Source of the DNA: Deltaproteobacteria bacterium
GTDB taxonomy: Bacteria; Myxococcota; JADLHZ01
DNA length: 64,000 bases
Assembly (NCBI GenBank): GCA_020848545.1
Contig: JADLHZ010000089.1
Span: 1 to 64,000 of the forward strand
Reading direction: 5' to 3'
Of this stretch, positions 25,690-39,643 are shown one piece after another. A program made the position numbers and the translations under genes. The first letter of the stretch is position 1; every line of letters begins with the position of its first letter. The notes under the pieces are model-generated. The model worked only from the letters and a program-made list of their open reading frames with translations, was not told where the DNA came from and did not search any database.

Positions 25690-26667
25690 TCAGGTCGGGA
25701 CGGCGACCTTGGCGAGGATGTCCTTCAACGCCGCCTCGACCGCGATGCGATCGAGCTGCTGCGTCGCGTGGCGCAAGGTCACGCGATGGTTCATCACCGG
25801 CAGCCACAGTTGGCTCACGTCGTCAGGGATGGTGAACTTCCTGCCGCGCAGCCACGCGAGGCCGCGGCACGCGTTGACGAGCGACACCGCCGCGCGCGTC
25901 GAAGCGCCGAGCTGAAAGTCCGGCGACTCGCGCGTGGCACGGCAGAGCGCCACGGCGTAGTCGGCGATCGCAGGATCGACGCGCACCGCTTGCACTTCGT
26001 CCATCGCAAGGCGCAGCTCGTCGCTCGTGATCACTTGCTGCACTTTGTCGGCACGCACGGGCGCGCCGCCGTTCATCACGATCTCGCGCTCGCTCTGCGC
26101 GTCGGGATAGCCGACCGAGAGGCGCATCAAGAAGCGGTCGAGCTGGTTCTCCGGCAACGGGTGCGTACCTTGGGCGTCGAGCGGGTTCTGCGTGGCGACG
26201 ACCCAAAACGGCTCCGGCAGCTTGTGGCTCTGGCGCTCGACCGAGACGGTGCCCTCGCCCATCGCCTCGAGCATCGCGCTCTGCGTCTTCGGCGTGGCGC
26301 GGTTGATCTCGTCGAGCAGGAGCACGTTCGTGAAGATCGGACCCGGCTTGAACTCGAACTGCGAGGTCTTCTGATCGTAGATGACGACGCCGGTCACGTC
26401 TGACGGGAGCAAGTCGGCGGTGCACTGCACGCGGCGAAACGCGAGGCCGAGCGTGCGCGAGAGGACCAAAGAGAGCGTGGTCTTGCCGACGCCCGGCACG
26501 TCCTCGAAGAGCACGTGGCCGCGCGCGACGAGCGCCACGAGCGCCATCTCGATCACTTGGCGCTTGCCTTTGATCGATCGCTCGACGTGTTCGACGAGAC
26601 GCGTCAGAAGCTCGGCGTCGGTGCCCGGTTGGCCCTTGGCAGGCGCTTTGTCGGCGATCTTCAGCAT
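25690..26667 (-). CDS. MoxR family AAA+ ATPase
   Basis: A 325-residue MoxR ATPase. Walker A is EDVPGVGKTTL, Walker B is LLLDEINRA, sensor 1 is VVATQNP, and the family block LPENQLDRFLMR follows; an AAA lid fills the C-terminus. MoxR ATPases act as chaperones for DUF58/VWA partner proteins, which here are encoded just downstream. I chose ATG 26667 because MoxR proteins start with a short N-terminal helix before the AAA core; the frame extends upstream into the peptidase gene with no similarity. It begins 7 bp after the S26-like peptidase stop. Confidence 0.93.
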   Translation of the reverse strand: MLKIADKAPAKGQPGTDAELLTRLVEHVERSIKGKRQVIEMALVALVARGHVLFEDVPGVGKTTLSLVLSRTLGLAFRRVQCTADLLPSDVTGVVIYDQKTSQFEFKPGPIFTNVLLLDEINRATPKTQSAMLEAMGEGTVSVERQSHKLPEPFWVVATQNPLDAQGTHPLPENQLDRFLMRLSVGYPDAQSEREIVMNGGAPVRADKVQQVITSDELRLAMDEVQAVRVDPAIADYAVALCRATRESPDFQLGASTRAAVSLVNACRGLAWLRGRKFTIPDDVSQLWLPVMNHRVTLRHATQQLDRIAVEAALKDILAKVAVPT

Positions 26668-26674
26668 GAAACCG

Positions 26675-27079
26675 CTAGCCTCCGAACAACCGAGCGAGCG
26701 TGAACAACATTCTGCGGCAGGCGAGCCGGAAGCGGATCTTGAACGGCAGCGGCGCCGTGCGGGCGATGCCGACGACGGCGTCAATCGGGATCGGACCTTC
26801 GCCGTGGCGCATGGCATCGCCCCACAGCCACACTTGGTTCGCCCGCAACTTCACGACTCGATGCAAGGTGGTGACGCCAGCGAACACCGCAAGCACCACC
26901 TCGCCTACATGCGGCGGTCGGGTGACGGGATCGATCATCACGACGGTGCCGTCTTGCAGGTGCGGCTCCATCGAGCGGCCGCGCGGCTTGAACAGAATCG
27001 GCTTTCCCGACCGCAATTTCTCGACGAACGCGACTTCATCCTGCGCTTGCGCACGTGCTGAGATGGGAATCTCACTCAT
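26675..27079 (-). CDS. S24/S26 signal-peptidase-like protease, probable Ser/His type
   Basis: About 134 residues with the S24/S26 peptidase core. Box B is GRSMEPHLQDG, giving the nucleophile Ser; then GEVVLAVF, TTLHRVV and a C-terminal WGDAMRHGE block like the GDN box of signal peptidases. At the usual general-base Lys position the sequence has His (LHRVV), as in ER, archaeal and SipW-type signal peptidases. There is one possible C-terminal amphipathic helix and no clear N-terminal anchor. ATG 27079 gives a normal protein; ATG 27100 is possible. The gene could serve the MoxR operon 7 bp downstream, or release peptides for the divergently encoded radical SAM system; both are inference. Confidence 0.7.
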   Translation of the reverse strand: MSEIPISARAQAQDEVAFVEKLRSGKPILFKPRGRSMEPHLQDGTVVMIDPVTRPPHVGEVVLAVFAGVTTLHRVVKLRANQVWLWGDAMRHGEGPIPIDAVVGIARTAPLPFKIRFRLACRRMLFTLARLFGG

Positions 27080-27104
27080 TCTGTGGAAATAGTGCCACAT
27101 CCGC

Positions 27105-27118
27105 TGCGGCCGGCCGCA
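27105..27118. promoter_or_regulatory. Perfect 14-bp palindrome between divergent genes
   Basis: TGCGGCCGGCCGCA is a perfect palindrome in the short spacer between the minus-strand peptidase and the plus-strand radical SAM gene, ending 4 bp before the latter's ATG. A second smaller inverted repeat, GTGG-N8-CCAC, lies beside it at 27083-27098. Such sites can be operators for a dimeric repressor acting on both genes, but GC-only palindromes also arise by chance in high-GC DNA. Confidence 0.35.
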
Positions 27119-27122
27119 AAAT

Positions 27123-28295
27123 ATGCGACGGTTAAGCGTGGGTGACGCGCTAGCAAAGCTCGAAGCGGCGGCCTGGCGCGCGGTCGTTCCGCTTTATGTC
27201 ACCGTAGAGCTCACGCGCCGCTGCAATCTGAATTGCGACCACTGCTATGTCGATCACCACATCAAAGATCAGCTGAGCGTCGAGCAGCTCGACAAGATCT
27301 TCGCCGACGTCGCGCGCGCCGGCGGGCTCTTCTTGGGCTTCACCGGCGGCGAGGTCGGGCTGCGTAAGGATCTGCACGAGATCATCGCCGCCGCGCGCCA
27401 GTACCGCTTCAACGTGAAGCTGCTGTCGACCGCGACGTTGTTCTCGCAGGAGGACATCGAGCGGCTCGCGGCGAGCGGCGTGCGGCAAGTGAAGGTGTCG
27501 ATCTACTCTGCGTCACCTGCGGTGCACGATCGCGTCGTCCGCCGCGCCGGCGCGCACGCGCTGTCATTGCGCGGGATCCGCCGCCTGCTCGACGCCGGCA
27601 TCGAAGTGACGATGGCGTGCCCGATCATGCGCGAGAACAAAGACGAGATCGCGAGCATCGTGGCGTTGGCCGATTCGCTCGGCATCCGCGCCGAGTTCGA
27701 CGGCCGCGTGAATCCGATGGAGAACGGCGGCACCGATCCCTGCTCGTTGCGCATCACCGCCGGCGAGCTCGCAGCGTCGTTCAACGCGGCGCCGGGCCTC
27801 GCCGAGTATCTCATGAAGGGCGGTAGCTCGTGGGAGAACGGCGGCCTCCTACCGCCGCGCGATCCGGACGAGCACGTTTGCAGCGCCGGCAACACGCTGT
27901 GCTTCATCGACTCACGCGGCGACGTGTTCCCATGCGTGTGGTGGCGCGAGAAGATCGGCAACGCGCTTTCAGATGGGTTCTACGAGCTATGGAAGACGTC
28001 GCGGGTATTTGCGCGCATCCGCCAGTTCAAGCTGAAGGACTTGCACGAGTGCCAAGATTGCTCGCTACAACAGCACTGCAGCGTGTGTCCGGGCGTCGGA
28101 TACCAAGAGCGCGGCGACGCGGCGCTGGCGGGATCCTCTGTGTGCAACACCGCCGCCGCGAACAAGCTCTTCTATGATTACGAGCGGCACCGCGTGCCGT
28201 ACGAAGATCCGGGCTACGTCGTGCTCGGCGCGACCGGCGCGAAGGGCGTGGCGCGTGGGATGTCGAAGCGCACGAAGCTGCCGATCCTCGGGTAA
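27123..28295 (+). CDS. Radical SAM/SPASM enzyme, PqqE-like peptide modifier
   Basis: A 390-residue radical SAM protein. The [4Fe-4S] motif is CNLNCDHC near residues 34-41. A GG(E/D) SAM-site motif (FTGGEVGLR) follows. The C-terminal part has many Cys (CSAGNTLC, PCVWW, CQDCSLQQHCSVCPG), the SPASM pattern that binds auxiliary Fe-S clusters. SPASM enzymes such as PqqE, AlbA and MftC modify ribosomal peptides, although some act on proteins or small molecules. No PqqD-like domain is fused at the N-terminus; a separate PqqD-like protein is encoded at 37809-38075. Together with the candidate precursor at 29756 this suggests a RiPP pathway. Its stop lies inside the palindromic repeat at 28294. Confidence 0.88.
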   Translation: MRRLSVGDALAKLEAAAWRAVVPLYVTVELTRRCNLNCDHCYVDHHIKDQLSVEQLDKIFADVARAGGLFLGFTGGEVGLRKDLHEIIAAARQYRFNVKLLSTATLFSQEDIERLAASGVRQVKVSIYSASPAVHDRVVRRAGAHALSLRGIRRLLDAGIEVTMACPIMRENKDEIASIVALADSLGIRAEFDGRVNPMENGGTDPCSLRITAGELAASFNAAPGLAEYLMKGGSSWENGGLLPPRDPDEHVCSAGNTLCFIDSRGDVFPCVWWREKIGNALSDGFYELWKTSRVFARIRQFKLKDLHECQDCSLQQHCSVCPGVGYQERGDAALAGSSVCNTAAANKLFYDYERHRVPYEDPGYVVLGATGAKGVARGMSKRTKLPILG

Positions 28296-28388
28296 AAAGG
28301 TCCCAGGGACCTATTTTCTGTCCAACTTCTGGACAGTCGCCCCGGGTGTACAGAATCTGGACAAAATAAAGGTCCCTGGGACCTTTTT
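28294..28388. repeat. 95-nt palindromic intergenic repeat, copy A (probable bidirectional terminator)
   Basis: A 95-nt element with 19-nt perfect terminal inverted repeats, AAAAAGGTCCCAGGGACCT at the left and its complement at the right; each end is itself nearly palindromic. An inner hairpin, CTGTCCA-N5-TGGACAG, lies at 28317-28335. It fills exactly the space between the stop of the radical SAM gene and the stop of the convergent beta-helix gene. Transcribed from either side it gives a stem followed by five U residues. A second copy, inverted and about 89% identical (10 differences, most in the central loop), lies at 45368-45463. Confidence 0.85.
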
Positions 28389-29716
28389 CACGGCGTGAAC
28401 ACCTTGGCGATCGCGACGCCGTAGGGCTTCGCCTTCTCTTCCGCCGGGAAGGGCAGGTTCGCCAGATCGAGGCCCATGCGCGGCGCGAAGTTCTTGATCG
28501 CCACGGTGCCGCCGTCTTTGTTCACGCCGAACATGCCGCGAATGTCGTTCATGACGGTCTTCTTCGCGCTGACGCTCGACGAGTCGGCGGCGCCGAGATC
28601 GACGAGCGCGACCGGCACCTTCGGATCCATGACGACGTTGTCCTTGAACTCGTACGGGTAGTCGTCTTCCATGTGCGGCTTCAGGACGACGATCTGGTGC
28701 TTCGGGTTCGGGCCGAACTTGCCGGTGAAGACGCCGGCTTCCGGGCGCGCGTCGCCGAACAGGGTCGCGTTCATGTAGAAGAGGTTCGAGACGAACTTCA
28801 TCTTCGGCATGCGCCCGGTCGGCCAGTCGTGCTGCATGGCGCCGCCGGCGTTGTAGGCGAAGAGATTGCCCTCGACGACGAGCTCTTGGCACGCGTCCTT
28901 GTGCCACAGCTCGAGCGCGCCGACGTTCGACGAGGTCGGATCCGGATTGTACGGCCAGTTCAAGATCACCGAGTTGTTCTTGAAGTTGATCGTCTTCGTC
29001 TTGAAGCCCTTGTAGAGCGCCGGGAAGAACTTCACCGGGATGATCGTGTTCAGGAAGAAGTTGTTCTGGATGTCGGCGACGGCGTCGTTCGACATCGGCG
29101 AGTGATACACTTCGAACGCGCGCTGCGCCCCGTTCAAGAACACGTTGTCGGCGATGACCAGGTGGTTCGTCACCACTTGCTTCAACGCGATCAGCGGGAT
29201 CGTGCGCGACGTTCCTTTGAGCAAGCTGTTCGTCTTGGCATCGTACTTGTTCGACGGCGCCGCATCGAGCACAAAGCCGCTGATGACGAGCGTGCCGATC
29301 AAGGTCTTGTTGCCGCCGAAGTTGAAGAACGCGTCCGGGCGACCATCGTCCGAGAGGATCTCACTCGGACACTTGAACGGGTTGCGCTCCTTCCAATCAG
29401 GGCAATAGCCGCCGAGGATCATGAGCGAGCCCTTCGGCGCGGTGAGGCCGCCTTGCGAGAAGCCGAAGAGCCCGCCCTCTTTGCCGGAGAACATGATGCG
29501 CACGTCGTTCTCGGTGTTCTGGAGGAGCTCGCCGGCCTTGGCGAAGCCCTTCGCGAGCTTCGGAAACCAGAACGAGGTCTTCCCGTCGGCCATGGCTTCG
29601 GCCGCCTTGTGCGCGGGTGTGTCGCGCTCGGCGACGTAGATCTTGATGGTCTCGGCGCGGGCCGTGGCGGTGACCGCGAAGCAAAGGGCGAAGACGGCGA
29701 GTGAAGTTCGTTTCAT
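28388..29716 (-). CDS. Secreted right-handed beta-helix protein
   Basis: A 442-residue exported protein. The signal peptide is residues 1-21 (SLAVFALCFAVTATARA). The mature part has repeated segments rich in N-x-(V/F)-F-x-N patterns, for example IADNVFLNG, IQNNFFLNT, FKNNSVILNW, VEGNLFAYNA and FVSNLFYMN. These fit the turns of a pectate-lyase-like parallel beta-helix. There is no recognisable catalytic site, so it may bind or process a polysaccharide, or be structural. It follows the candidate peptide precursor by 39 bp on the same strand and may be the last gene of that operon. The ATG at 29716 starts the signal peptide directly. Confidence 0.7.
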   Translation of the reverse strand: MKRTSLAVFALCFAVTATARAETIKIYVAERDTPAHKAAEAMADGKTSFWFPKLAKGFAKAGELLQNTENDVRIMFSGKEGGLFGFSQGGLTAPKGSLMILGGYCPDWKERNPFKCPSEILSDDGRPDAFFNFGGNKTLIGTLVISGFVLDAAPSNKYDAKTNSLLKGTSRTIPLIALKQVVTNHLVIADNVFLNGAQRAFEVYHSPMSNDAVADIQNNFFLNTIIPVKFFPALYKGFKTKTINFKNNSVILNWPYNPDPTSSNVGALELWHKDACQELVVEGNLFAYNAGGAMQHDWPTGRMPKMKFVSNLFYMNATLFGDARPEAGVFTGKFGPNPKHQIVVLKPHMEDDYPYEFKDNVVMDPKVPVALVDLGAADSSSVSAKKTVMNDIRGMFGVNKDGGTVAIKNFAPRMGLDLANLPFPAEEKAKPYGVAIAKVFTP

Positions 29717-29755
29717 GGCACGTGTTCATGCCAGAAGCGGGCAGCGGCGCAAGAT

Positions 29756-29917
29756 TCAGGAACCTTGACGAGAAATCGGCGCGCGCTCGCAGCTCGCGAT
29801 CTTGCCTTGGCACGCGAGCGCTTGCCGCTCGAACACTTCTTCGGTCGTGATCGCCGGCGGCTCGTACGGGCGCCGCTCCTTGCGTTCGAGCGGCTTTTTG
29901 TCGTCGTCCGGCTTCAT
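29756..29917 (-). CDS. Small RiPP-precursor-like peptide (53 residues)
   Basis: A 53-residue peptide. The charged N-terminus (MKPDDDKKPLERKERR) leads into PYEPPAITTEEVFERQALAC and then a short tail with Cys36 and Cys43 (QGKIASCERAPISRQGS). A Y-x-P-P-x-(I/L)-x-x-E-x-(F)-E segment followed by ALAC is reminiscent of the leaders that PqqD-like recognition domains bind, such as the YxxP motif of lasso-peptide leaders. I recall similar small proteins in other deltaproteobacteria but cannot verify it here. Its ATG overlaps the giant gene's TGA (ATGA), which fixes the start and implies coupled translation; an ATG at 29929 is an alternative. The radical SAM enzyme and PqqD-like protein would be its partners. 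Confidence 0.6.
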   Translation of the reverse strand: MKPDDDKKPLERKERRPYEPPAITTEEVFERQALACQGKIASCERAPISRQGS

Positions 29918-32900
29918 CGCCACAACCATAGCGCAGAATTCGTCGTGCTGCCCAGCCGTCCCGCAGCGCCGACCTGCGACGCGCCGGCGCCAGCGTGCGT
30001 CTTCGCGTCGAACACGTTCACGCCCGGGCCGTTGCCGGCGCTCGCGTTGCCGCTGATCTCGGCGATCACCCGAAACACGTTGCCGTTGTCGCAGGTCGTC
30101 GGCTCGCGCGTCACCACGTAGAGGCGCGAACGGAAGCTGGTGCCGCCGGACTCGCCGACGAAGAAGTCGGCCTTGCCGTCGCCGTTGAAGTCGCCGGCTG
30201 GCGCGGCGCTGTTGCCCTTCGGAAAAATGTTCTCTTCGAGCGGTGGGTTCGTCACGTGCTTCGTCACATTGCACGAGTCGTCGAGCGACGGGCCGAAGGC
30301 GCTGATCGGATGCAGGTCGTTGATCTCGTGCGCGTTCGGGCGCGCGACGGTGGTCATGCTCGTGCACGTTGGGCCGGGCGCGAAGAAGTCGTCGCTGCCG
30401 GACAGCGCACGCAGGCTGCCCTTGTCGGGTGCACCGACGCGCGAGCGCACGAGCAACCAGTCGTGCGTCGCGTCGCTCAAGCGGCCGACGTTCGCGATGT
30501 TGAGCAGCGTCTCCGGGGGCGCAGTGTCGCAACGCTGTAGCGCAGCACCGGCGCCGCCCTTATAGAAACGGATCACCGTCTCCGGGCATGTGGAGAAGAA
30601 GCCGTACGACGACGCCACGTCGCGCTTGCCGTCGCCGTCCATGTCTGGCACCGCGACGGCGACGTCGTAGGTCGGAGGGCCACAGTCGTTGAACGGCCCG
30701 AGGCGCGTGACTGCTGCGTTCTGGCCCGCCGTGAGCGCGCGCAGATCGAGCACGGTCGTCGACGCCGGCGGGCTCAGGGCGAACAACGGCGCGCCGCCTT
30801 TCAAGATGAACGCTCCCGGTCCGCTCGCGTCTTGCATCGACGCGTCGGCGATGACGAGATCATCGGGGCCGTTCGTCGCGTTGACGTGACCCGCCTGCAT
30901 GTCCCAGCCGAGCAAGCCGAACGACGAGAAGACCGGATCGAGCGTGGCGCTGCCGCCGTGGATGATCACGTGTGGACACTTCGGCGTCGGCACGAGCGCG
31001 AAGCCGCAGCTCGCTTCACGCAAGAGCTTCGGGTTTGTGCCGCTCGAGTCGCCGGTGCCGTAGTAGATGTAGACGGTGCCGGAAGGCTGGCCGTCCGGGC
31101 CGTAGCCGCTCGGCGCGGAGATCGCGAGATCGGCAGCGCCGTCGCCGTTGAAGTCGCCGCCGGCCATCGCTTGTCCGAAGTACTGCGCGAACGCGGTCGG
31201 GCTTCCGGGCGGCGGCGGCAAAATGATCTCGCGCGGGGTGAAGCGCTCACTCGCCGGAGCGAACGCGGCGTTGCGCGCTTTCTTCGACGAGTACAAGCGC
31301 ACGCCGCCGTTCTCGCTGGCGACGGCGATCTCGACGCCGCCGTCGCCGTCCATGTCGCCGACCGCGATCGCCGAGTAGACTTGCCCGCCGGCCCAGGTGT
31401 CGAGCGCCGGCGGTGAATCGTCGGCGCGATCGCCTGCCGCGCGCGTTCCCGTGCGGGTCATCGGCGAGAGCGGTGCGCCGATCGGCACGAGCGGCGACAC
31501 GCGCATCACGCTCACCGGATCGCTGAAGTTGCCGACGTCGTCCTCCGCGCGCACGGCGAAGCACAGGCGCTGGTGCACCGGCACGCCGCCGGTCACAGAG
31601 AGCGTCTGCGTTTGCCCGGGCGCGAGCACCGGCGTCGCCGCGGTCGGGACGAAGAGCGCGCTCATCGCCGTCACGCCCGATGTCAGTAGAGTATTACACA
31701 GCGCCGCGCTCGTCGGCTGATCGTCCGTGATGCCGACTTGCACGCGGTACGCGGCGACGTTGCCGACGCTGCCGCCCGCGGCGCCGCGCGAGGTGAAGCG
31801 CAGCACGGCCTTGCCCGTGCGTGCGTCGCACTTGCCGCCCGCACACAGCGCTGCGCACGCAGCGTCGTCGGCGTAGAGTCCGGCGTCTGCCGGCGCCGGC
31901 GTCGGCGACAGCGACTGTCCGAGGCACACGATCGCGTCGTTCACCGCGGCTGGCGGATCGACGTTGACGCGCATCCGCAGGCTCTTGTCCGTCGCCGGCA
32001 TGCCGTTCTGTGATGTCGTCGCGCAGTCGCCGGCGAGGTTGCACACCGTCGCCGTGATCACCTGCGTCGTGGTCGTCGCCGGCGCGCCTGCGGTCACTGC
32101 CGTAGGAATACTGACGTCGTTCGAGAACGTGGCGGCGTTGGCAGCGACCGTCGTCTGCGTCGTTCCGGTCATGGTCGTCACCGAGCTCGTCAGCTTCGCC
32201 GTCCCGCCGTTGGCGTCCTGCACGGCGAGCTTCACGGCGAGACCTAGCCGGAATTGAAAGCCCGGCGCCGGCTGCGCGTCGAGGAGCAGCCCGAGCGCTT
32301 CAGTCCCCGGCCCTTCGATCGCCCGCACGGTCATGCCCGGCGTCGCCCCCGGCGCCGCGTTGAAGTGCGCGTCGGCGAGCCACTGCGGGTCGAAGGTGAC
32401 GCTCGGGGCGACGTTCACGGTGTTGATGCCCGAAACCTCGTTGATGCCGATGACGTCGCTGACGCTGCAGTCGTTGCCTTGGTGCAGCTCGGCGCGAATC
32501 GTGTACGGCGTGCCCGTCGGCAGCGAGACGTTACCGAACACCAGGTTCTGCGGGTTCGTCGCCGGCGCGCTCACGACTTGATCCACGGACACGCTCGCCG
32601 CCGGCACCGTGAGCCGCACGCAACGCGACGCCGCTGGCACCGATGGCGTGAACAACAGGCTCACGCGCAGATCGGTCGCGAACTGCGTGCCGACCGGCGT
32701 GACGACCACGTTGTGCCGCACGCCGAGCGTGTCGCCCGACTGCAGTGGACGTCCGAGATCGCCTGCGCCCGGCGCGTTGTCGAAGCCGCGCTGGATCGCG
32801 ACGATGGCGCCGGAGAACGCGTCGAGCTCCACGTGGCGCGCGGCCGACGTCGAGAAGTTGCCGTAGCGATCGCGCGCTTCGAGGCGCAGCCGCCAGAAGG

Positions 32901-35900
32901 TCGCCCGCTCGAGGCCCGGCGCTCCGTTCGGCGCAAGCGCTTCGATCAACGCCGCCGCGAGATCGGCCGCAAGCCCGCCCTTCTTGCTCGCATGCACCTC
33001 GATCGCCGGCGCGAGCGGCATGCCCGACGCATCGAGCGGCTCTCCGAGCAAGCGCACGGTGTAAGCGCACGAGTCTCCCGCGATCTGACACGCCGTCGTC
33101 TGCGTGCCGCTCGTGGTCAGGCGATACACTCCGCTCGCGTACCAACGCGGACACAAGGGTGGCGGCGACGGCGACGTTCCGGGATCGCCCGGCTGATCCG
33201 GACACTCGCCAGGATCGTCGTCGAAGCCGATCTCACAGCCGCTCGAGCTGAAGCTGCTGCACGTGCCAGGGACGGCGCTCACTTCGAGCACCGGCGCGCC
33301 GTTCGTCGCCAGCGTGTCGACGGTGTAGTCGACGGCGCTGGCGACCGTCACGTTGCCGGCGCCATCGGCCGCTTCGCCGACGACGGCGTTCGTTCCTTCG
33401 GCGAGGTTCGTCGCGATGATCGGCATCGCGCTCGAGCCCATCGCGAGCCCTGGCGCGCTGCAGGCCGTGAGGCAACGCGTGCCGCTCGTGCGCACACACA
33501 CGCAGCCGCCGCCGAGCTGCAGGTCGTCGGCGACGCCGAGCAGCACGTCGACGTTGCGGCCGGTCGGTGCGAGGCACAAGCCCGGTGTCAGGCACGTGTA
33601 CGGCGCTTGATCGGGCTGCGCGACGAGCAACACCGGCGGCGAGAGATCGACGACCACGCTCACGGTCTGCATGCGCGAATTTCCGCTCGGCGTGGTCGTC
33701 ACGAGCGTCAGCGTGTGCACGCCAGAAACGAGCGCGGCGATCCCGCTGAACACGATGCTGTTGCCGCTGAACATCGCGGTGCCAGCGAGCGCGCCTTGCA
33801 ACGACGAGCTCACCGACGCCGTGGCGAGGTCATTCGTCGCCGACGGGAAGGTGAAGGTCAGCGAACCGATCTGTAACGATCCGCCGTTGACCGTTCCTTC
33901 AGCGCGATAGGTCGAGCCGTCGTAGACGTTGCTACCGAGCTGCAGGACGATCGGATTCGCCTTGTCGTTCGCCAAGATGTTGCTCATCGAGGTCACGCTC
34001 GAGATCGTCGGCGGCAGCACCGAGTCGACGCGCACCGGGAACGACATCTGCGCCGGCGAGACTCCGAACGCGCCGCTCATCGGCACCACTTCTACAGCGA
34101 GGCCGTAGGGCGTGGCGCCGCTGTCGATGAGCCGCACGTTGCCGAAGATCTTCTGCGTGACGTTGCCGCCGAGCGACACGCTCTGGCCGCTCGCGAGGAC
34201 CTTCCCCGGTACGTGCGCGCACGGCGCAGCGCTCACCAACGCCGGATCGTTCGCCGTCGAACAGAGGTGCACGTCGGCGCCGGCCGGCAGGTTCAAGATC
34301 GTGACGAGGACTGAAGCCTGCACGCCGGCGTTCACCGGGTCTTCGTCGTCGTTCGTCGCGTTCAGGAACGTGACGGTCGTTGTATCGACGAAGTCGACGC
34401 GCGGCGTGCGGAAGCTGACGACCGGCGTCGTCGGATCGATCGTCGGGGTGCACACCGCCGACTGCGCCACGTTGTCCGCGGCATCGTGCGCTGCGCCGAC
34501 GAACGACGCGGTATACGTGGTGGCCGGCGACGGCACTGGAAACGCGATGGTCACGTCGGCAGCGTTTCCGAGGACAGGGCCAGTCGCGCTGACGACACCG
34601 TTCGGCGCGGTCGTCGTCACCGTCACGAGCGCGCCATCGAGCACGTCGGTCGTCGTGTACTCGGCGCGGTGCTCGACGGCGTTGAACGTTCCGGCGTCGT
34701 CGAAGGGATTGAACTGCGCGATCGTCATCGGGCACGCGTCGAGCGTCACGGTCGGCGGCACGCGATCCACAAGCGGCGTCACCGATCCCGTCGCCGACAA
34801 CGCGCCGAACGCGTTCGGCACGTCCGCGTCGAGGCGAACCTGCTCGCCGGCCGGCATCAACGTCGGCGACAACGTCAGCGCGCGAAACGTCGCTTGGCCG
34901 CCGGTGATCGGCGCCGTCGCAGAAGCGATCAGCGTGTCGGCCGGCAGCGCGAAGACTTGCAAGGTCGCGAGCGTGCCGTCGTCGGCGCCGACCGCGATCG
35001 TCACGTCTTGCTGATAACCCGCCGTCGCGCTCACGTCCGGCGCGAGCGCGTTGAAGTAGTACGCCGGCGCGCTCAGATGCACGCCCGTCGCGTCGAGGAA
35101 GGTCACGCCCGGCGCGCTGCTCCGATAGTGGAAGAGCAAACGCTGCGACGTGAAGGTGTCGCCGCCGCCGGTGCAGCGCACGAGGAAGGTGTGATCGCCG
35201 TCGCTCAACGCGCCGAGCGCGACCGCGCCGAAGCTGACGCTCGTGGCCGTCGAGCCCACGACCGACGCGCCGGCGATCGCCGCGTCGTCGCGATAGAGAT
35301 CGCAGTCTTTGCTGCCGCTGTCGGTGTCGAAGCTGACCGTGACGCTGCCGGGGCCGAGCTCGGCGCCATACAATGGGCTCGTGAGCTGCACGCGGCGATT
35401 GGCGTTCGCGCCCGCGTTCACCGTCACGTCGAGGCTCACCCACGGCGAACGCACGGGTGGCAGCTTCGTCGCGTTTTCGGTCACGCGCAGCCACAAGCGC
35501 ACGGTGTCGTTGGCCCACAGGGAAAAATCGATGTCGGAGAGATCGAGCACGCCGCCCGCAGGCACCGTCGCGCTGCGCGTGATCCACACGTCGCTCGCTG
35601 CCGGGGTCACGACGCCCGTGCCGGTGACTGCGAGCTCGACTGTCGCCGCGGCAGGCACCGCGTTCACGCGCGCCAGGACACGCACGTCGAAGCCGTCGGT
35701 GAGATCGGCGTCTTGATCCGGCGCCGCCAGCAGGACGGGCGGCGACGCGAGCCCGGTGATTCCGTTGACGCCGGTGAACGCAATCGTCGGCGCGCCGTTC
35801 GACACGAACACGTTGCGGGTGAGCGTCGTCGTGTTCTTCTTCGCCCCGTTGCGATCGTCGACCTCGACGCGCAGCACAGCACCCGGGGCCGCGACGGTCG

Positions 35901-37812
35901 CGCTCAAGGTGACGAAGATCTGCTCCCCCATCAGCGTCGCCGCCGGCACGAGCTCCGAGTCAGCGAGCGCCGCGCCGTTGTACACGCGCACCTCGCGCTC
36001 TTGCGGCTCGCCGTCGAGCTGCACGACGACGGACAGCGCGCCTGCTGGGACCACGTCGCCGTCGCGCGGCGAAGACACGTCGGCAAACGGCGCCGTCGCG
36101 TCGACCTGCACTTTGATCTTCGGCGAGCGCACGACGTGGGTGTTCAAGAGCGTCGCCGTCGCTTCGATGCCGTCGATGATCCCGCTCGGCGCCGGGCCGT
36201 CGCTCAAGCTCACCGGCACGATCTGCGGAGACGCCGAGTAGGTAAAGAACGTCGGCGCTTGGCCTGGGACGACGACCGATCCCGGCCGCCCGTTCAGGTG
36301 CGCCGCGTGCGCGATCTCGACGGTGAACGGCGCTTGCAGGCCCGGCGTGCCAGCGTCGACGTCGTCTTGCAGCGTGAGCAGCGTGATCTGCTCGGGCGAC
36401 GCTGTGTAGCTCGGCATGGTGATCGCGAGCTCGGCGTCGATGACCACGGCGACGAAGGTGATGACGCGCACCACGGCGTTCCCGGCGGCATCGCGCACCG
36501 TGAACAACAACTCCGTCGGCCCGTCGACCAATGTCACGCCGGGGATCGTGAAGCGCCCGATGCTCGCCGTCTGATCGAAGCACTCCTTGTCGGCCGGGTT
36601 CGCGAGCACGGCCTCCGCTTCGTAGTCCGTGATGACGCCATCGGCGTCGGTGACCCGCAGGAGCTGCACGGCGCCCTCTTCGATCCCGAGCGCTTCGCCG
36701 CGCGCGGTGATCTGAAAGCCGGGGAGCATCGGGTCGTCGTCGAGCAGCATCGGCGCCGAGCCCGAGTCCGGCGCAACGAAAGACACGAGCGGCGGCATCG
36801 TGTCGACGACGTATAGATTGTCGAGCGCGCGTCCTTCACGACCGCCCGCTTCGCTCACCGTCGCAAAAACGATGTTCGCATTTTGATACATCGGCACGTC
36901 GGCAAAGGTGACGAGGCCGCCGCTCACCGTGCCCATGATCGACCGAGAAGCCGGCAAGCGGCACTGGGTGGCGCCCGCGCTCTCGTCGTACACGGTGCCG
37001 TCGACAACCAAGGTCGCAGTGCTGCCGTCCGCGCACGTCGTCGACAGCACCACTTGCCGCGCCGGCGCGAGCGTGCCGGCGTCGCCGTCCTTCAGCGGAT
37101 CGTGCAGGAACGAAAAACCGTCGGGGGGCTGCAGCTCCGCGAGGCAACGTCCGGTGTCGACGACGACGTCGGCGGTCGCTTCCTTCGGCAAGAGATCACC
37201 GCGCACTTCGAGCGTGTTCGGCCCTTCGGCGAGGTCGACGCTGGGGGCGACGGCACGGCCGCGCGCATCGAGCACCACCGTCTTCGGCCGCCGCGCGTGC
37301 ACACCGACGGTGAGCTCCGTCCCTTCCGCCAAGCCGACGCACCCGATCGCCAAGTCGAGCTGCACGCCGGGCCGCAGCGCATCGACGTCGTCCGGCGTGC
37401 CGAGCAGGTCACCGTCGCGCGGCGCGATGAAGTCGCAGATCGAGCCCGTGCCATCGACGGTGACGGTGATCGCGGTCTCCACCCCGCGCGACGACGCGAC
37501 GAGCGTGACCTCGCCGACCGGCAGCGTGACGCCGAGGAACACGAGGTCTCCATCGATCGCCGCGATCGACAGCGTTTGATCGCCGACAACGAGCGTGACG
37601 CGATCACCCGGCAGCGCCCACGCCACCATGAGGTGCACGTCGATCTGCACGCCGTCGAGCGCGACCGACGTGTCGTCGATGAACGACAGCGCCGCGCCGT
37701 CAAAAGGCGAAGAGAACTCGAGCGTCACCGGCGGCGGCGGCTCGGCGACGTACGCGCCGCACCCGCGACACGCCGCGAGCGCGCACAACATCGCGGCGAG
37801 GGCGACCCTCAT
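29914..37812 (-). CDS. Giant surface lipoprotein: Ig-like repeats and C-terminal FG-GAP beta-propeller
   Basis: A 2632-residue exported protein. The N-terminus MRVALAAMLCALAAC is a lipoprotein signal with lipobox LAAC. Residues about 25-2100 are a long series of beta-rich modules with Ig/cadherin-like hallmarks (such as AVDGAGNV-type, DAAGNAVVRVI, DTMPPLVSF, DRVPPTVTL and ATDKSLRM segments). Residues about 2140-2632 contain FG-GAP/VCBS blades with calcium-loop motifs: GDMDGDGG, GDFNGDGAAD, PDMDGDGKRD and GDFNGDGKAD, as in integrin alpha propellers. It is probably a surface adhesin or display scaffold. I chose ATG 37812 for the signal peptide; it overlaps the PqqD-like gene's stop, and its own stop overlaps the small peptide start, so all three are coupled. 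Confidence 0.85.
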   Translation of the reverse strand: MRVALAAMLCALAACRGCGAYVAEPPPPVTLEFSSPFDGAALSFIDDTSVALDGVQIDVHLMVAWALPGDRVTLVVGDQTLSIAAIDGDLVFLGVTLPVGEVTLVASSRGVETAITVTVDGTGSICDFIAPRDGDLLGTPDDVDALRPGVQLDLAIGCVGLAEGTELTVGVHARRPKTVVLDARGRAVAPSVDLAEGPNTLEVRGDLLPKEATADVVVDTGRCLAELQPPDGFSFLHDPLKDGDAGTLAPARQVVLSTTCADGSTATLVVDGTVYDESAGATQCRLPASRSIMGTVSGGLVTFADVPMYQNANIVFATVSEAGGREGRALDNLYVVDTMPPLVSFVAPDSGSAPMLLDDDPMLPGFQITARGEALGIEEGAVQLLRVTDADGVITDYEAEAVLANPADKECFDQTASIGRFTIPGVTLVDGPTELLFTVRDAAGNAVVRVITFVAVVIDAELAITMPSYTASPEQITLLTLQDDVDAGTPGLQAPFTVEIAHAAHLNGRPGSVVVPGQAPTFFTYSASPQIVPVSLSDGPAPSGIIDGIEATATLLNTHVVRSPKIKVQVDATAPFADVSSPRDGDVVPAGALSVVVQLDGEPQEREVRVYNGAALADSELVPAATLMGEQIFVTLSATVAAPGAVLRVEVDDRNGAKKNTTTLTRNVFVSNGAPTIAFTGVNGITGLASPPVLLAAPDQDADLTDGFDVRVLARVNAVPAAATVELAVTGTGVVTPAASDVWITRSATVPAGGVLDLSDIDFSLWANDTVRLWLRVTENATKLPPVRSPWVSLDVTVNAGANANRRVQLTSPLYGAELGPGSVTVSFDTDSGSKDCDLYRDDAAIAGASVVGSTATSVSFGAVALGALSDGDHTFLVRCTGGGDTFTSQRLLFHYRSSAPGVTFLDATGVHLSAPAYYFNALAPDVSATAGYQQDVTIAVGADDGTLATLQVFALPADTLIASATAPITGGQATFRALTLSPTLMPAGEQVRLDADVPNAFGALSATGSVTPLVDRVPPTVTLDACPMTIAQFNPFDDAGTFNAVEHRAEYTTTDVLDGALVTVTTTAPNGVVSATGPVLGNAADVTIAFPVPSPATTYTASFVGAAHDAADNVAQSAVCTPTIDPTTPVVSFRTPRVDFVDTTTVTFLNATNDDEDPVNAGVQASVLVTILNLPAGADVHLCSTANDPALVSAAPCAHVPGKVLASGQSVSLGGNVTQKIFGNVRLIDSGATPYGLAVEVVPMSGAFGVSPAQMSFPVRVDSVLPPTISSVTSMSNILANDKANPIVLQLGSNVYDGSTYRAEGTVNGGSLQIGSLTFTFPSATNDLATASVSSSLQGALAGTAMFSGNSIVFSGIAALVSGVHTLTLVTTTPSGNSRMQTVSVVVDLSPPVLLVAQPDQAPYTCLTPGLCLAPTGRNVDVLLGVADDLQLGGGCVCVRTSGTRCLTACSAPGLAMGSSAMPIIATNLAEGTNAVVGEAADGAGNVTVASAVDYTVDTLATNGAPVLEVSAVPGTCSSFSSSGCEIGFDDDPGECPDQPGDPGTSPSPPPLCPRWYASGVYRLTTSGTQTTACQIAGDSCAYTVRLLGEPLDASGMPLAPAIEVHASKKGGLAADLAAALIEALAPNGAPGLERATFWRLRLEARDRYGNFSTSAARHVELDAFSGAIVAIQRGFDNAPGAGDLGRPLQSGDTLGVRHNVVVTPVGTQFATDLRVSLLFTPSVPAASRCVRLTVPAASVSVDQVVSAPATNPQNLVFGNVSLPTGTPYTIRAELHQGNDCSVSDVIGINEVSGINTVNVAPSVTFDPQWLADAHFNAAPGATPGMTVRAIEGPGTEALGLLLDAQPAPGFQFRLGLAVKLAVQDANGGTAKLTSSVTTMTGTTQTTVAANAATFSNDVSIPTAVTAGAPATTTTQVITATVCNLAGDCATTSQNGMPATDKSLRMRVNVDPPAAVNDAIVCLGQSLSPTPAPADAGLYADDAACAALCAGGKCDARTGKAVLRFTSRGAAGGSVGNVAAYRVQVGITDDQPTSAALCNTLLTSGVTAMSALFVPTAATPVLAPGQTQTLSVTGGVPVHQRLCFAVRAEDDVGNFSDPVSVMRVSPLVPIGAPLSPMTRTGTRAAGDRADDSPPALDTWAGGQVYSAIAVGDMDGDGGVEIAVASENGGVRLYSSKKARNAAFAPASERFTPREIILPPPPGSPTAFAQYFGQAMAGGDFNGDGAADLAISAPSGYGPDGQPSGTVYIYYGTGDSSGTNPKLLREASCGFALVPTPKCPHVIIHGGSATLDPVFSSFGLLGWDMQAGHVNATNGPDDLVIADASMQDASGPGAFILKGGAPLFALSPPASTTVLDLRALTAGQNAAVTRLGPFNDCGPPTYDVAVAVPDMDGDGKRDVASSYGFFSTCPETVIRFYKGGAGAALQRCDTAPPETLLNIANVGRLSDATHDWLLVRSRVGAPDKGSLRALSGSDDFFAPGPTCTSMTTVARPNAHEINDLHPISAFGPSLDDSCNVTKHVTNPPLEENIFPKGNSAAPAGDFNGDGKADFFVGESGGTSFRSRLYVVTREPTTCDNGNVFRVIAEISGNASAGNGPGVNVFDAKTHAGAGASQVGAAGRLGSTTNSALWLWR

Positions 37813-38075
37813 GCAACGACCCGGCGGATCATCCCGCGCGTCTCGAGCGAATGTATGAATTTTTCCACGTCGTTCGCGGCCGTCTCGCGCTCGACCGAAA
37901 ACTCCTCGACGACCGAGTCGACGATCGCCGCGAGCGACGTCTTGCCGTCGCAACGATCGAAGACCCACGTGCCGACGGCGTTCAAGCTGTGAATCTTCGA
38001 GTCCTCGGCGGTGATGATGAACGCTTCGCCGCCGATCGTGCGGTGATCGATGTCGGGGGATTTGTCGAAGTACAT
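37809..38075 (-). CDS. PqqD-like peptide recognition protein
   Basis: An 88-residue protein matching the PqqD/RRE fold. It opens with short beta-strands (GGEAFIITAEDSKIHSLNAVG), then the conserved helix TWVFDRCDGKTSLAAIVDSV and a winged-helix end (DVEKFIHSLETRGMIRRV). PqqD binds the leader of PqqA and presents it to the radical SAM enzyme PqqE; related domains serve many RiPP pathways. It heads the minus-strand operon and overlaps the giant gene by ATGA. Its natural client is probably the 53-residue peptide at the far end of this operon and its enzyme the radical SAM protein at 27123. I chose ATG 38075 for normal family length. Confidence 0.82.
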   Translation of the reverse strand: MYFDKSPDIDHRTIGGEAFIITAEDSKIHSLNAVGTWVFDRCDGKTSLAAIVDSVVEEFSVERETAANDVEKFIHSLETRGMIRRVVA

Positions 38076-38175
38076 CGACTTTGAAGTATGCCCGCCGTCG
38101 CCGCCGCGCTCAAGCAGCCTGCGTCCATGCGAGGACGGGCAACACGTTCGGTTGCATGATTCCGCACGTTTTAGC

Positions 38176-38203
38176 TTGCCTGGCGGCATATCGGCAGTTT
38201 AGT
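38176..38203 (+). promoter_or_regulatory. Candidate promoter for the collagen-like lipoprotein
   Basis: TTGCCT at 38176-38181 and TTTAGT at 38198-38203 are spaced by 16 bp, each matching four of six consensus bases. They lie in the 189-bp divergent spacer between the PqqD-like gene and the collagen-like gene. A weak call by eye; no matching site was found for the minus-strand operon. Confidence 0.25.
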
Positions 38204-38264
38204 CCCCGCAACTTCATGACGCGGTGTGCCGATAAGGCTCGGTCACCAAGACGAGGGTAAACGT

Positions 38265-39050
38265 ATGCAAAAGATCGCACTGACCATCGCATTCTCGGCC
38301 GCCACCATCGCGTGCGGCACCGCCGGCAAAGGCACCGACGCCACCGGCAAAGGCAGCTCGACGCCGCTCGGCACGCCAGACGCGACGGCCGTCGAGAGCC
38401 TCGCCAACGCGTGGGCGGTCGCCAGCGAAGACGACCTGCCCGAGTGCGACACCGCGCGCCGCGGCCAGCTCTACTTCGTCGAGAGCGACGACACCTTCCG
38501 AGTTTGCCGCGCGACCGGCTGGGCCGAGATCGATCTGAAAGGCGCTGACGGCGCGACCGGCGCCAAAGGTGCGACGGGCGCTGCAGGTGCTGCCGGTGCC
38601 ACGGGTGCGACCGGCGCCGCTGGGGCGACGGGTGCGACCGGCGCCAAGGGCGCAACTGGTGCCAAAGGCGCGACGGGCGCCGCCGGCGGAAGCGGCAGCG
38701 GAGGCGGCGGCTTCGACATCGCGGCGAAGCTCGACTGCGCGGCCTACAAGCAAGGCTGGTACCTCGAGTACACAGGCGTGCGCTTCACGAACAACATGCT
38801 CTTCGTCAGCTGCGTCGCGTCGGGCAGCACGATGCAATCGTCGGCGTCGACGATCTACTCGGAAGCGCAAGCGGGCAGCGACGACGGCTACTGCGCCGTC
38901 ACCTTCGACACCGACGGCACTGCCAGCTACGGCTACTGGGAATTCACCTACACGAACTTGGAAGTCATCTACAAAGATCCGGGCAGCCCGTACAACGGCT
39001 TCACCTTCCAGTTCGATCTCGCGGCCGACTGCGTCGAGATCTCTCAATGA
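38265..39050 (+). CDS. Collagen-like lipoprotein
   Basis: A 261-residue protein with lipoprotein signal MQKIALTIAFSAATIAC. Residues about 93-140 are sixteen consecutive Gly-x-y triplets, nearly all GAT, GAA or GAK, then a Gly/Ser stretch. The C-terminal 110 residues form a compact domain with three Cys (LDCAAY, VSCVAS, YCAVTF, ADCVEI). Bacterial collagen-like proteins form trimeric stalks that display such heads at the surface. GAGGG precedes ATG 38265. It is divergent from the PqqD-giant-peptide operon, so it may belong to the same surface system; that link is positional only. Confidence 0.82.
   Translation: MQKIALTIAFSAATIACGTAGKGTDATGKGSSTPLGTPDATAVESLANAWAVASEDDLPECDTARRGQLYFVESDDTFRVCRATGWAEIDLKGADGATGAKGATGAAGAAGATGATGAAGATGATGAKGATGAKGATGAAGGSGSGGGGFDIAAKLDCAAYKQGWYLEYTGVRFTNNMLFVSCVASGSTMQSSASTIYSEAQAGSDDGYCAVTFDTDGTASYGYWEFTYTNLEVIYKDPGSPYNGFTFQFDLAADCVEISQ
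38541..38684 (+). repeat. Tandem nonamer repeats encoding Gly-x-y triplets
   Basis: Sixteen 9-bp units, roughly GGCGCGACC or GGTGCGACG variants, encode the collagen-like triplets of the lipoprotein. The near-identity of the units makes copy-number change by slippage likely. Confidence 0.85.
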
Positions 39051-39217
39051 ATGTGAATGCGGTTCGGCGCTCCGTCGACCGCGGTCTGCATCACGAAGTT
39101 TCCTTCGGGGACCGGTATCCACATGTTGTGGTCGTCGCCGGCGCCCGGGATGGTGATCGAGCCAGGCTCAGGACAGCGAGAAGAAATCGCACGTGGTCAG
39201 AATAGCAGCTGTGGGTG

Positions 39218-39643
39218 TCAGAGACCCGTCGACAGTGCGTGCGGCAGGCTCGCCCGGTCGGCCAAGCGGCGCAGCGAGGCCGCCGTCGCGTCGTCGCGTT
39301 CGCTCTCGCTGAGCTTGGCGGCGTAGAACACGCGCCGCATCTCGTACACTTTCAGATCACGCTCGTAGCTCTTCCAGCTCACCTTGCCTTCGCGCGCGTC
39401 GTTGTAGCGTCCGCGGAGCGTTTGGTGCTCCGCGTCGAGCGCCGCGTGCTCCCGGCGGAGATCGAAGCGGCGCGACTTGGCGGTCTGTTCGTAGAGGTCA
39501 GCCGTCGATGACAGCACCGGCGCGACGGCCAAGCGCTCTGCGATCGAGAGGTCGGCGATCTCGCGGGAGATGCCCGCCTCTTCCCAATCGAGGATGCGGC
39601 GGTCGGCGATGGCGCGGGTGTAGACGGTGAGAAATTTGTCCAT
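39218..39643 (-). CDS. Small helical protein of unknown function
   Basis: A 141-residue soluble protein that I do not recognise. It is almost entirely predicted helix, rich in Arg, Ala, Leu and Glu, with a likely coiled coil at residues 50-115 (TADLYEQTAKSRRFDLRREH and following). The ATG at 39643 has a near-perfect Shine-Dalgarno, GGAGGG, 6 nt upstream, which argues that it is a real gene. It stands alone, between the collagen-like gene (167 bp of empty spacer) and etfA. The first residues (DKFLTVYTRAIAD) are typical of small regulatory helical bundles, but no function can be given. Confidence 0.7.
   Translation of the reverse strand: MDKFLTVYTRAIADRRILDWEEAGISREIADLSIAERLAVAPVLSSTADLYEQTAKSRRFDLRREHAALDAEHQTLRGRYNDAREGKVSWKSYERDLKVYEMRRVFYAAKLSESERDDATAASLRRLADRASLPHALSTGL

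Follow-up and report, generated by a model that had tools for sequence, protein, structure and literature searches.

The window, by which we mean the whole 64,000-nucleotide stretch of DNA analysed, carries on its minus strand a PqqD-like RiPP recognition element (RRE), a giant lipoprotein gene and a small peptide gene, in that order and joined by two ATGA junctions. The RRE gene (37809..38075, ∼88 aa), which is absent from the first-pass annotation of this DNA, matches PF05402 with 65.3 bits; nothing else in the 8-Mb genome passes the Pfam cut-off for that model. The closest solved structures to its product are TbiB1, 9x8z. Its TGA overlaps the ATG of the giant gene (29914..37812, about 8 kb), whose 2,632 aa product has a lipobox-like N-terminus, a Big_13-like domain and C-terminal FG-GAP repeats, as judged from Pfam and from the homology network described below. 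A mechanical list of open reading frames starts this gene at a GTG at 37968, which is probably wrong; a lipoprotein-type ATG at 37812 (MRVALAAMLCALAACRGCG) appears to be the start, and it is this codon that overlaps the PqqD-like stop. AlphaFold was run on the first 624 and the last 703 residues of the giant; the models had very low confidence (mean pLDDT 38.6 and 34.2, respectively), were discarded and lend no support.

The peptide gene (29756..29917, minus strand) encodes 53 residues, MKPDDDKKPLERKERRPYEPPAITTEEVFERQALACQGKIASCERAPISRQGS, followed by a stop codon. Re-translation gave Cys36, Cys43, the segment Y18-E-P-P-A-I23 and then EEVFERQALAC, exactly as first described, and the start is likewise the one given then: the ATG at 29917 shares an ATGA with the TGA of the upstream giant gene, which ends at 29914. 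No Shine-Dalgarno-like run is present in the 25 nt ahead of this ATG. Overlap and missing run together fit termination-reinitiation, so that translation of the peptide probably depends on termination of the giant gene. Searches of Pfam and NCBIfam with the peptide gave no match. From column conservation, and by analogy with the LPP peptides of Bacillota (PMC13381572), residues 1-31 (29825..29917) are taken as the leader, with Y18-x-x-P21-x-I23 as putative RRE binding motif. Residues 32-53 (29759..29824; QALACQGKIASCERAPISRQGS), a variable region, form the predicted core. Cleavage is predicted after F29-E30-R31, on the model of F-E-T in LPP.

Beyond the peptide gene, a radical SAM (rSAM)/SPASM enzyme of 390 aa is encoded on the plus strand (27123..28295). 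It was recognised by Pfam and has a CxxxCxxC motif and seven SPASM cysteines; most of these cysteines fall among the invariant columns of the alignment, and the nearest solved relatives are SkfB (E 4e-31) and PqqE. Divergent to it, on the minus strand, lies a gene for an archaeal/ER-type signal peptidase-like protease (26675..27100; SxM...H...GD), which we propose as leader peptidase. The best solved match to its profile is SEC11A (7e-18). The Ser (S35) and His (H72) were found in all eight sequences compared, and the GD/Asp in that of the window and in most others. A secreted 442-aa protein without Pfam match is encoded on the minus strand between the peptide and the rSAM gene (28388..29716). 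It was rejected as a component of the system, being unique to this genome among the loci fetched, none of the others having a homolog.

The genome also holds an HprK-like kinase gene (G000:C84) and an NTP_transf_5 protein, both unlinked to the window's cluster, which makes phosphorylation uncertain in this organism. The HprK-like protein, at L199:8507-9337, is an orphan with no RiPP genes around it and a candidate kinase in trans. No MsbA-type exporter was detected among the part of the neighbouring genes scanned with Pfam, no lasso cyclase (C) or B2 protease among the neighbours identified, and no Rfam match in positions 26000-39500.

Conservation of the giant-peptide arrangement

A search with the peptide only found genome G033 (E 1.6e-6), where PqqD, giant and peptide genes are followed by convergent rSAM and HprK-like genes, the rSAM enzyme being 36% identical to that of the window. 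Profile searches then expanded the set to 20 giant-peptide loci, found via the peptide or the rSAM enzyme; a profile scan of genome contigs gave mostly more distant rSAM relatives and was of use for some loci. Gene calls in all loci are mechanical. In the 20 loci the distance from the stop of the giant to the start of the peptide ranges from −4 to +34 nt, and PqqD accompanies 18 of them, the other two being cut by contig ends. For profile matches outside the training set (E < 0.01), a giant lies directly upstream in 8 cases out of 9. The giants form one homologous network with lipoprotein-like N-termini, and the members scanned have FG-GAP and mostly Big_13 domains.

Because these first loci had partly been found through the peptide, a non-circular test was run, in which 195 genomes were searched with the N-terminal region of the giant alone. 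Twenty further giants were fetched, 7 of which run off their contigs. A YxxP peptide followed 12 of the 13 giants with an intact 3′ end: ten were detected by the YxxP pattern, that of G013 by eye (YRKPKS), and that of G185 (RRPYARPVL) after the true stop of a frameshifted giant. The sole exception is G037, with no YxxP peptide after its giant. Applied behind 768 other long genes of the loci, a comparable scan gave 10 hits, almost all of which belong to rSAM or other RiPP loci. Of the 20 giant-first loci, 18 contain PqqD. The giant-then-peptide arrangement is thereby present in at least 32 distantly related genomes, and the order RRE, giant, peptide recurs throughout what is probably one phylum, the Myxococcota. 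The coupling to a giant gene noticed in the window is thus real and widely conserved.

The other genes are less constant. An HprK-like kinase (in most loci with enough context), the signal peptidase and mostly an rSAM gene are linked in the relatives, and the rSAM gene is missing from the fetched stretch of five loci of family f8, the giant being the more constant of the two. The HprK-like proteins of relatives retain the His, Walker A and Asp of HPr kinase; their match to HPr kinase structures is weak.

The 53-residue open reading frame is a real gene, one that ordinary gene calling overlooks. A chance frame behind a large gene might be suspected, since G+C-rich genomes are full of spurious ones and no Pfam or NCBIfam model covers the peptide. 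Such an origin is next to impossible, being contradicted by sequence, position and frame kept in more than 30 genomes, after homologous giants, and by an excess of synonymous change in the leader codons of four f8 relatives (pS 0.27–0.48 versus pN 0.10–0.25; in the three close relatives among them pN is 0.10–0.13). The claim of real translation made for this frame is supported: the motif is conserved in related genomes, and the homologs have kept the frame.

Leader and tail of the peptide family

Twenty peptides were aligned on the Tyr of the motif. K/R at −3, Y/W at 0, P at +3 and I/V/L at +5 are present in all 20, E at +8 in 14 and F or L at +11 in 18, and entropy rises past +18. The leader, [KR]xxYxxPx[ILV]...FER, is thus conserved and the tail variable, as expected of a RiPP precursor, and the peptide is encoded with modification enzymes and a recognition element. 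The initial suggestion of a RiPP-type precursor whose YxxP motif is linked to a PqqD-like domain fares well: YxxP is the most conserved part, and a PqqD/RRE gene belongs to the operon. Conservation is also higher in the segment before ALAC than in the tail, a comparison that had been proposed at the outset.

At least three kinds of tail were distinguished: LxC...C, as in the window; LF...C..C without proximal Cys, in the five f8 genomes that lack rSAM; and YGPFRxxPRR without any Cys, in family f4. The last, or a similar tail, is seen in the giant-linked peptides of L251, L252, L254, L255 and L257. Some peptides are both Cys-free and only 40–46 aa long. The two-Cys tail, pointed out in the first-pass annotation as characteristic and suited to thioether or disulphide modification, is therefore not a feature of the family, as the five rSAM-less relatives have no proximal Cys, and cysteine is missing altogether from the peptide of G093 and from several giant-linked ones. 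A thioether is plausible in the peptide of the window alone.

A Cys located 18–20 residues past the Tyr was found in 11 of 13 loci with an rSAM gene and in none of the 5 without (p = 0.0025), a correlation that is phylogenetically weak because the five rSAM-less loci all belong to one family. It suggests that the rSAM enzyme acts at the proximal Cys. Two genomes, G093 and G023, break the rule. A C-terminal Ser as phosphorylation site of the giant-linked family was considered and not adopted, its occurrence in 6 of 20 peptides (p 0.009) being weak.

Related peptides without a giant gene

The rSAM search revealed a second group of clusters, in Omnitrophota, Desulfobacterales, Aminicenantes, Chloroflexota and others (L103, L105, L109, L116-L120, L124, L132, L186). 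Their peptides, YKKPxxxxVxL...EEAVLxxCK...C...GS, are encoded with HprK-like and often signal-peptidase genes. A C-terminal Ser is present in 12 of 14 (p 5e-10), which suggests, by analogy with paeninodin, that it is phosphorylated by the linked HprK-like protein. Three clusters of this group have a large secreted peptidase C25 (gingipain-like) in place of the FG-GAP giant (L114:5854-9456, L119:4549-9633 and L120:1687-9594); they belong to Chloroflexota, Aminicenantes and Desulfobacterales. Large secreted partners may be a wider theme, which we mention as a lead and not as a result.

Other YxxP-like peptides were met along the way. In L226 (G104), L229 (G180) and L233 (G105), peptides of the form RRRWAAPQVRS...LLCTSGTPITCEGGACCDV..C have W replacing Y, and no giant. 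Multi-copy Cys-free peptides RRxYQPPRIVKKRAVSRATLFTGSGP occur in L221 (G082), L224 (G042) and L225 (G081), all of one genus. A hit in G042 (L029), like the RRSYQPPRIVKKRAVS peptides that its genus carries in multiple copies, has no giant upstream; these were set aside as a different family. Finally, L023:10469-10985 (G022) encodes two tandem precursors, KRPYRRPAIASSETYERMALACTGS..., with neither giant nor rSAM nearby; at another place (L092) the same genome has a complete cluster that includes two rSAM genes.

Discussion

The closest described systems are the linear polyphosphorylated peptides (LPP), RiPPs of Bacillota with an RRE (LppB), an HprK-like kinase (LppK) and a signal peptidase (LppS). 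Experiments showed that LppB binds YxxP, that LppK polyphosphorylates a Ser of the core, and that LppS cuts the precursor after F-E-T, only when LppB is present (Popov et al. 2026, PMC13381572). According to the same paper these peptides occur in Bacillota only, with a patchy distribution, and their biological role is unknown. The system described here resembles them by its discrete RRE, which is predicted to bind the leader, by the YxxPx[hydrophobic] motif in that leader, by F-E-(T/R) ahead of the core, by an archaeal-type signal peptidase with Ser/His/Asp and, in most relatives, by an HprK-like kinase. The protease and the kinase of the relatives point by analogy to the LPP kind, a link missed in the first-pass annotation. 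The differences are the rSAM/SPASM enzyme, the giant lipoprotein and the phylum, together with an NTP transferase that is not linked here and a kinase that is unlinked in the genome of the window. The precursors also diverge, since YxxPx[ILV]xxEExFER replaces the LPP motif YxxPxVLxHQxIxFETxxS, with a Y-to-F spacing of 11 residues instead of 13 in the LPP consensus.

Other known systems share part of these genes. Paeninodin-type phosphorylated lasso peptides have a [Y/W]xxP leader, a discrete RRE and an HprK-like kinase acting on Ser (PMC8498205). Leader motif, RRE and, in most relatives, the kinase are also present in the giant-linked family, which differs by its signal peptidase and by the lack of lasso cyclase and B2 peptidase among the neighbours identified. 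Sactipeptide synthases provide the closest solved rSAM relative, SkfB, and act on Cys-containing substrates, whereas the cysteines of the giant-linked family are not conserved throughout. The SynChlorMet cassette combines HprK-related, PqqD-related and rSAM/SPASM proteins (NCBIfam ScmC, ScmD, ScmE, ScmF), yet all matches to models TIGR04248-04251 were far below cut-offs. It also has a short target peptide; we know of no giant lipoprotein in it. GeoRSP systems have an rSAM/SPASM enzyme and a PqqD family chaperone; their models scored below cut-offs here, and to our knowledge their definition includes neither signal peptidase nor HprK-like kinase.

The explanation that we favour, and consider probable as a whole, is an LPP-like RiPP with two additions, an rSAM/SPASM maturase and an obligate giant Big/FG-GAP lipoprotein with which the core would act; the open reading frame would then be a RiPP-type precursor of the LPP-like kind, the same grade applying to all parts jointly. 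What the analysis shows is the gene and how it is conserved, the order of the operon, and the families of the enzymes with their catalytic residues; on this we build the following proposal for leader binding, cleavage, chemistry, export and function. RRE, giant and peptide would be made from one coupled operon. The RRE would bind the YEPPAI leader and present the peptide; the rSAM enzyme would modify the core, with Cys36 as the most likely site. Cleavage after FER by the Ser-His signal-peptidase-like protease would release a core of ∼22 residues, and this core would reach the cell surface and act with the giant lipoprotein, as a bound ligand, a modified part or a cargo. A point that sits less easily with this explanation is that cores differ greatly between lineages, some having no Cys. 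The giant of G037, with no peptide behind it, the unlinked kinase of this genome and the failure to see an MsbA-type exporter among the neighbours scanned also speak against it.

The hypervariable core, as seen in antagonistic peptides, could rather indicate an ordinary secreted RiPP, bacteriocin or signal, the giant being the immunity, receptor or delivery protein of the producer. RRE, rSAM enzyme and leader peptidase are indeed those of diffusible RiPPs, and LPPs have a patchy distribution (PMC13381572). We nevertheless regard this as unlikely, given that the giant outlasts the rSAM gene in the five f8 loci, that no linked exporter was seen among the neighbours scanned, and that the non-giant clusters of other phyla indicate that similar peptides can exist without a giant. 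The constancy of the RRE, giant and peptide triad, the most constant part of the loci, together with Cys-free peptides as short as 40–46 aa, might also mean that the peptide escapes RiPP processing and serves the giant as a small partner or chaperone, its YxxP bringing the PqqD-like protein to it. This seems more doubtful still, as signal peptidase, HprK-like kinase and usually an rSAM maturase are linked, and as a conserved leader with a variable tail is the RiPP pattern.

Returning to the LPP-like RiPP paired with a giant lipoprotein, the pairing is, on our best reading, what is new here, the LPP machinery itself being already known. We found no description of it in the open-access literature, and one may exist elsewhere. 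Signal-peptidase type processing of RiPPs, so far reported from Bacillota only, probably extends beyond that phylum. More tentatively, and somewhat short of what we would call probable, the RiPP may be dedicated to a giant surface lipoprotein, as its partner, its ligand or a prosthetic peptide, with RRE, giant and precursor as an ancient coupled unit whose chemistry was swapped between lineages (rSAM or not, Cys or none).

The usual picture of a RiPP is that of a diffusible antibiotic, signal or cofactor. In the present case a phylum-wide operon structure ties a precursor to a predicted surface protein fifty times its size. If the partnership is true, it would give modified peptides a testable physiological role, where none is known for LPP, the closest described family, and the pairing offers a way to approach the Big/FG-GAP giants, a large class of proteins that is uncharacterised.
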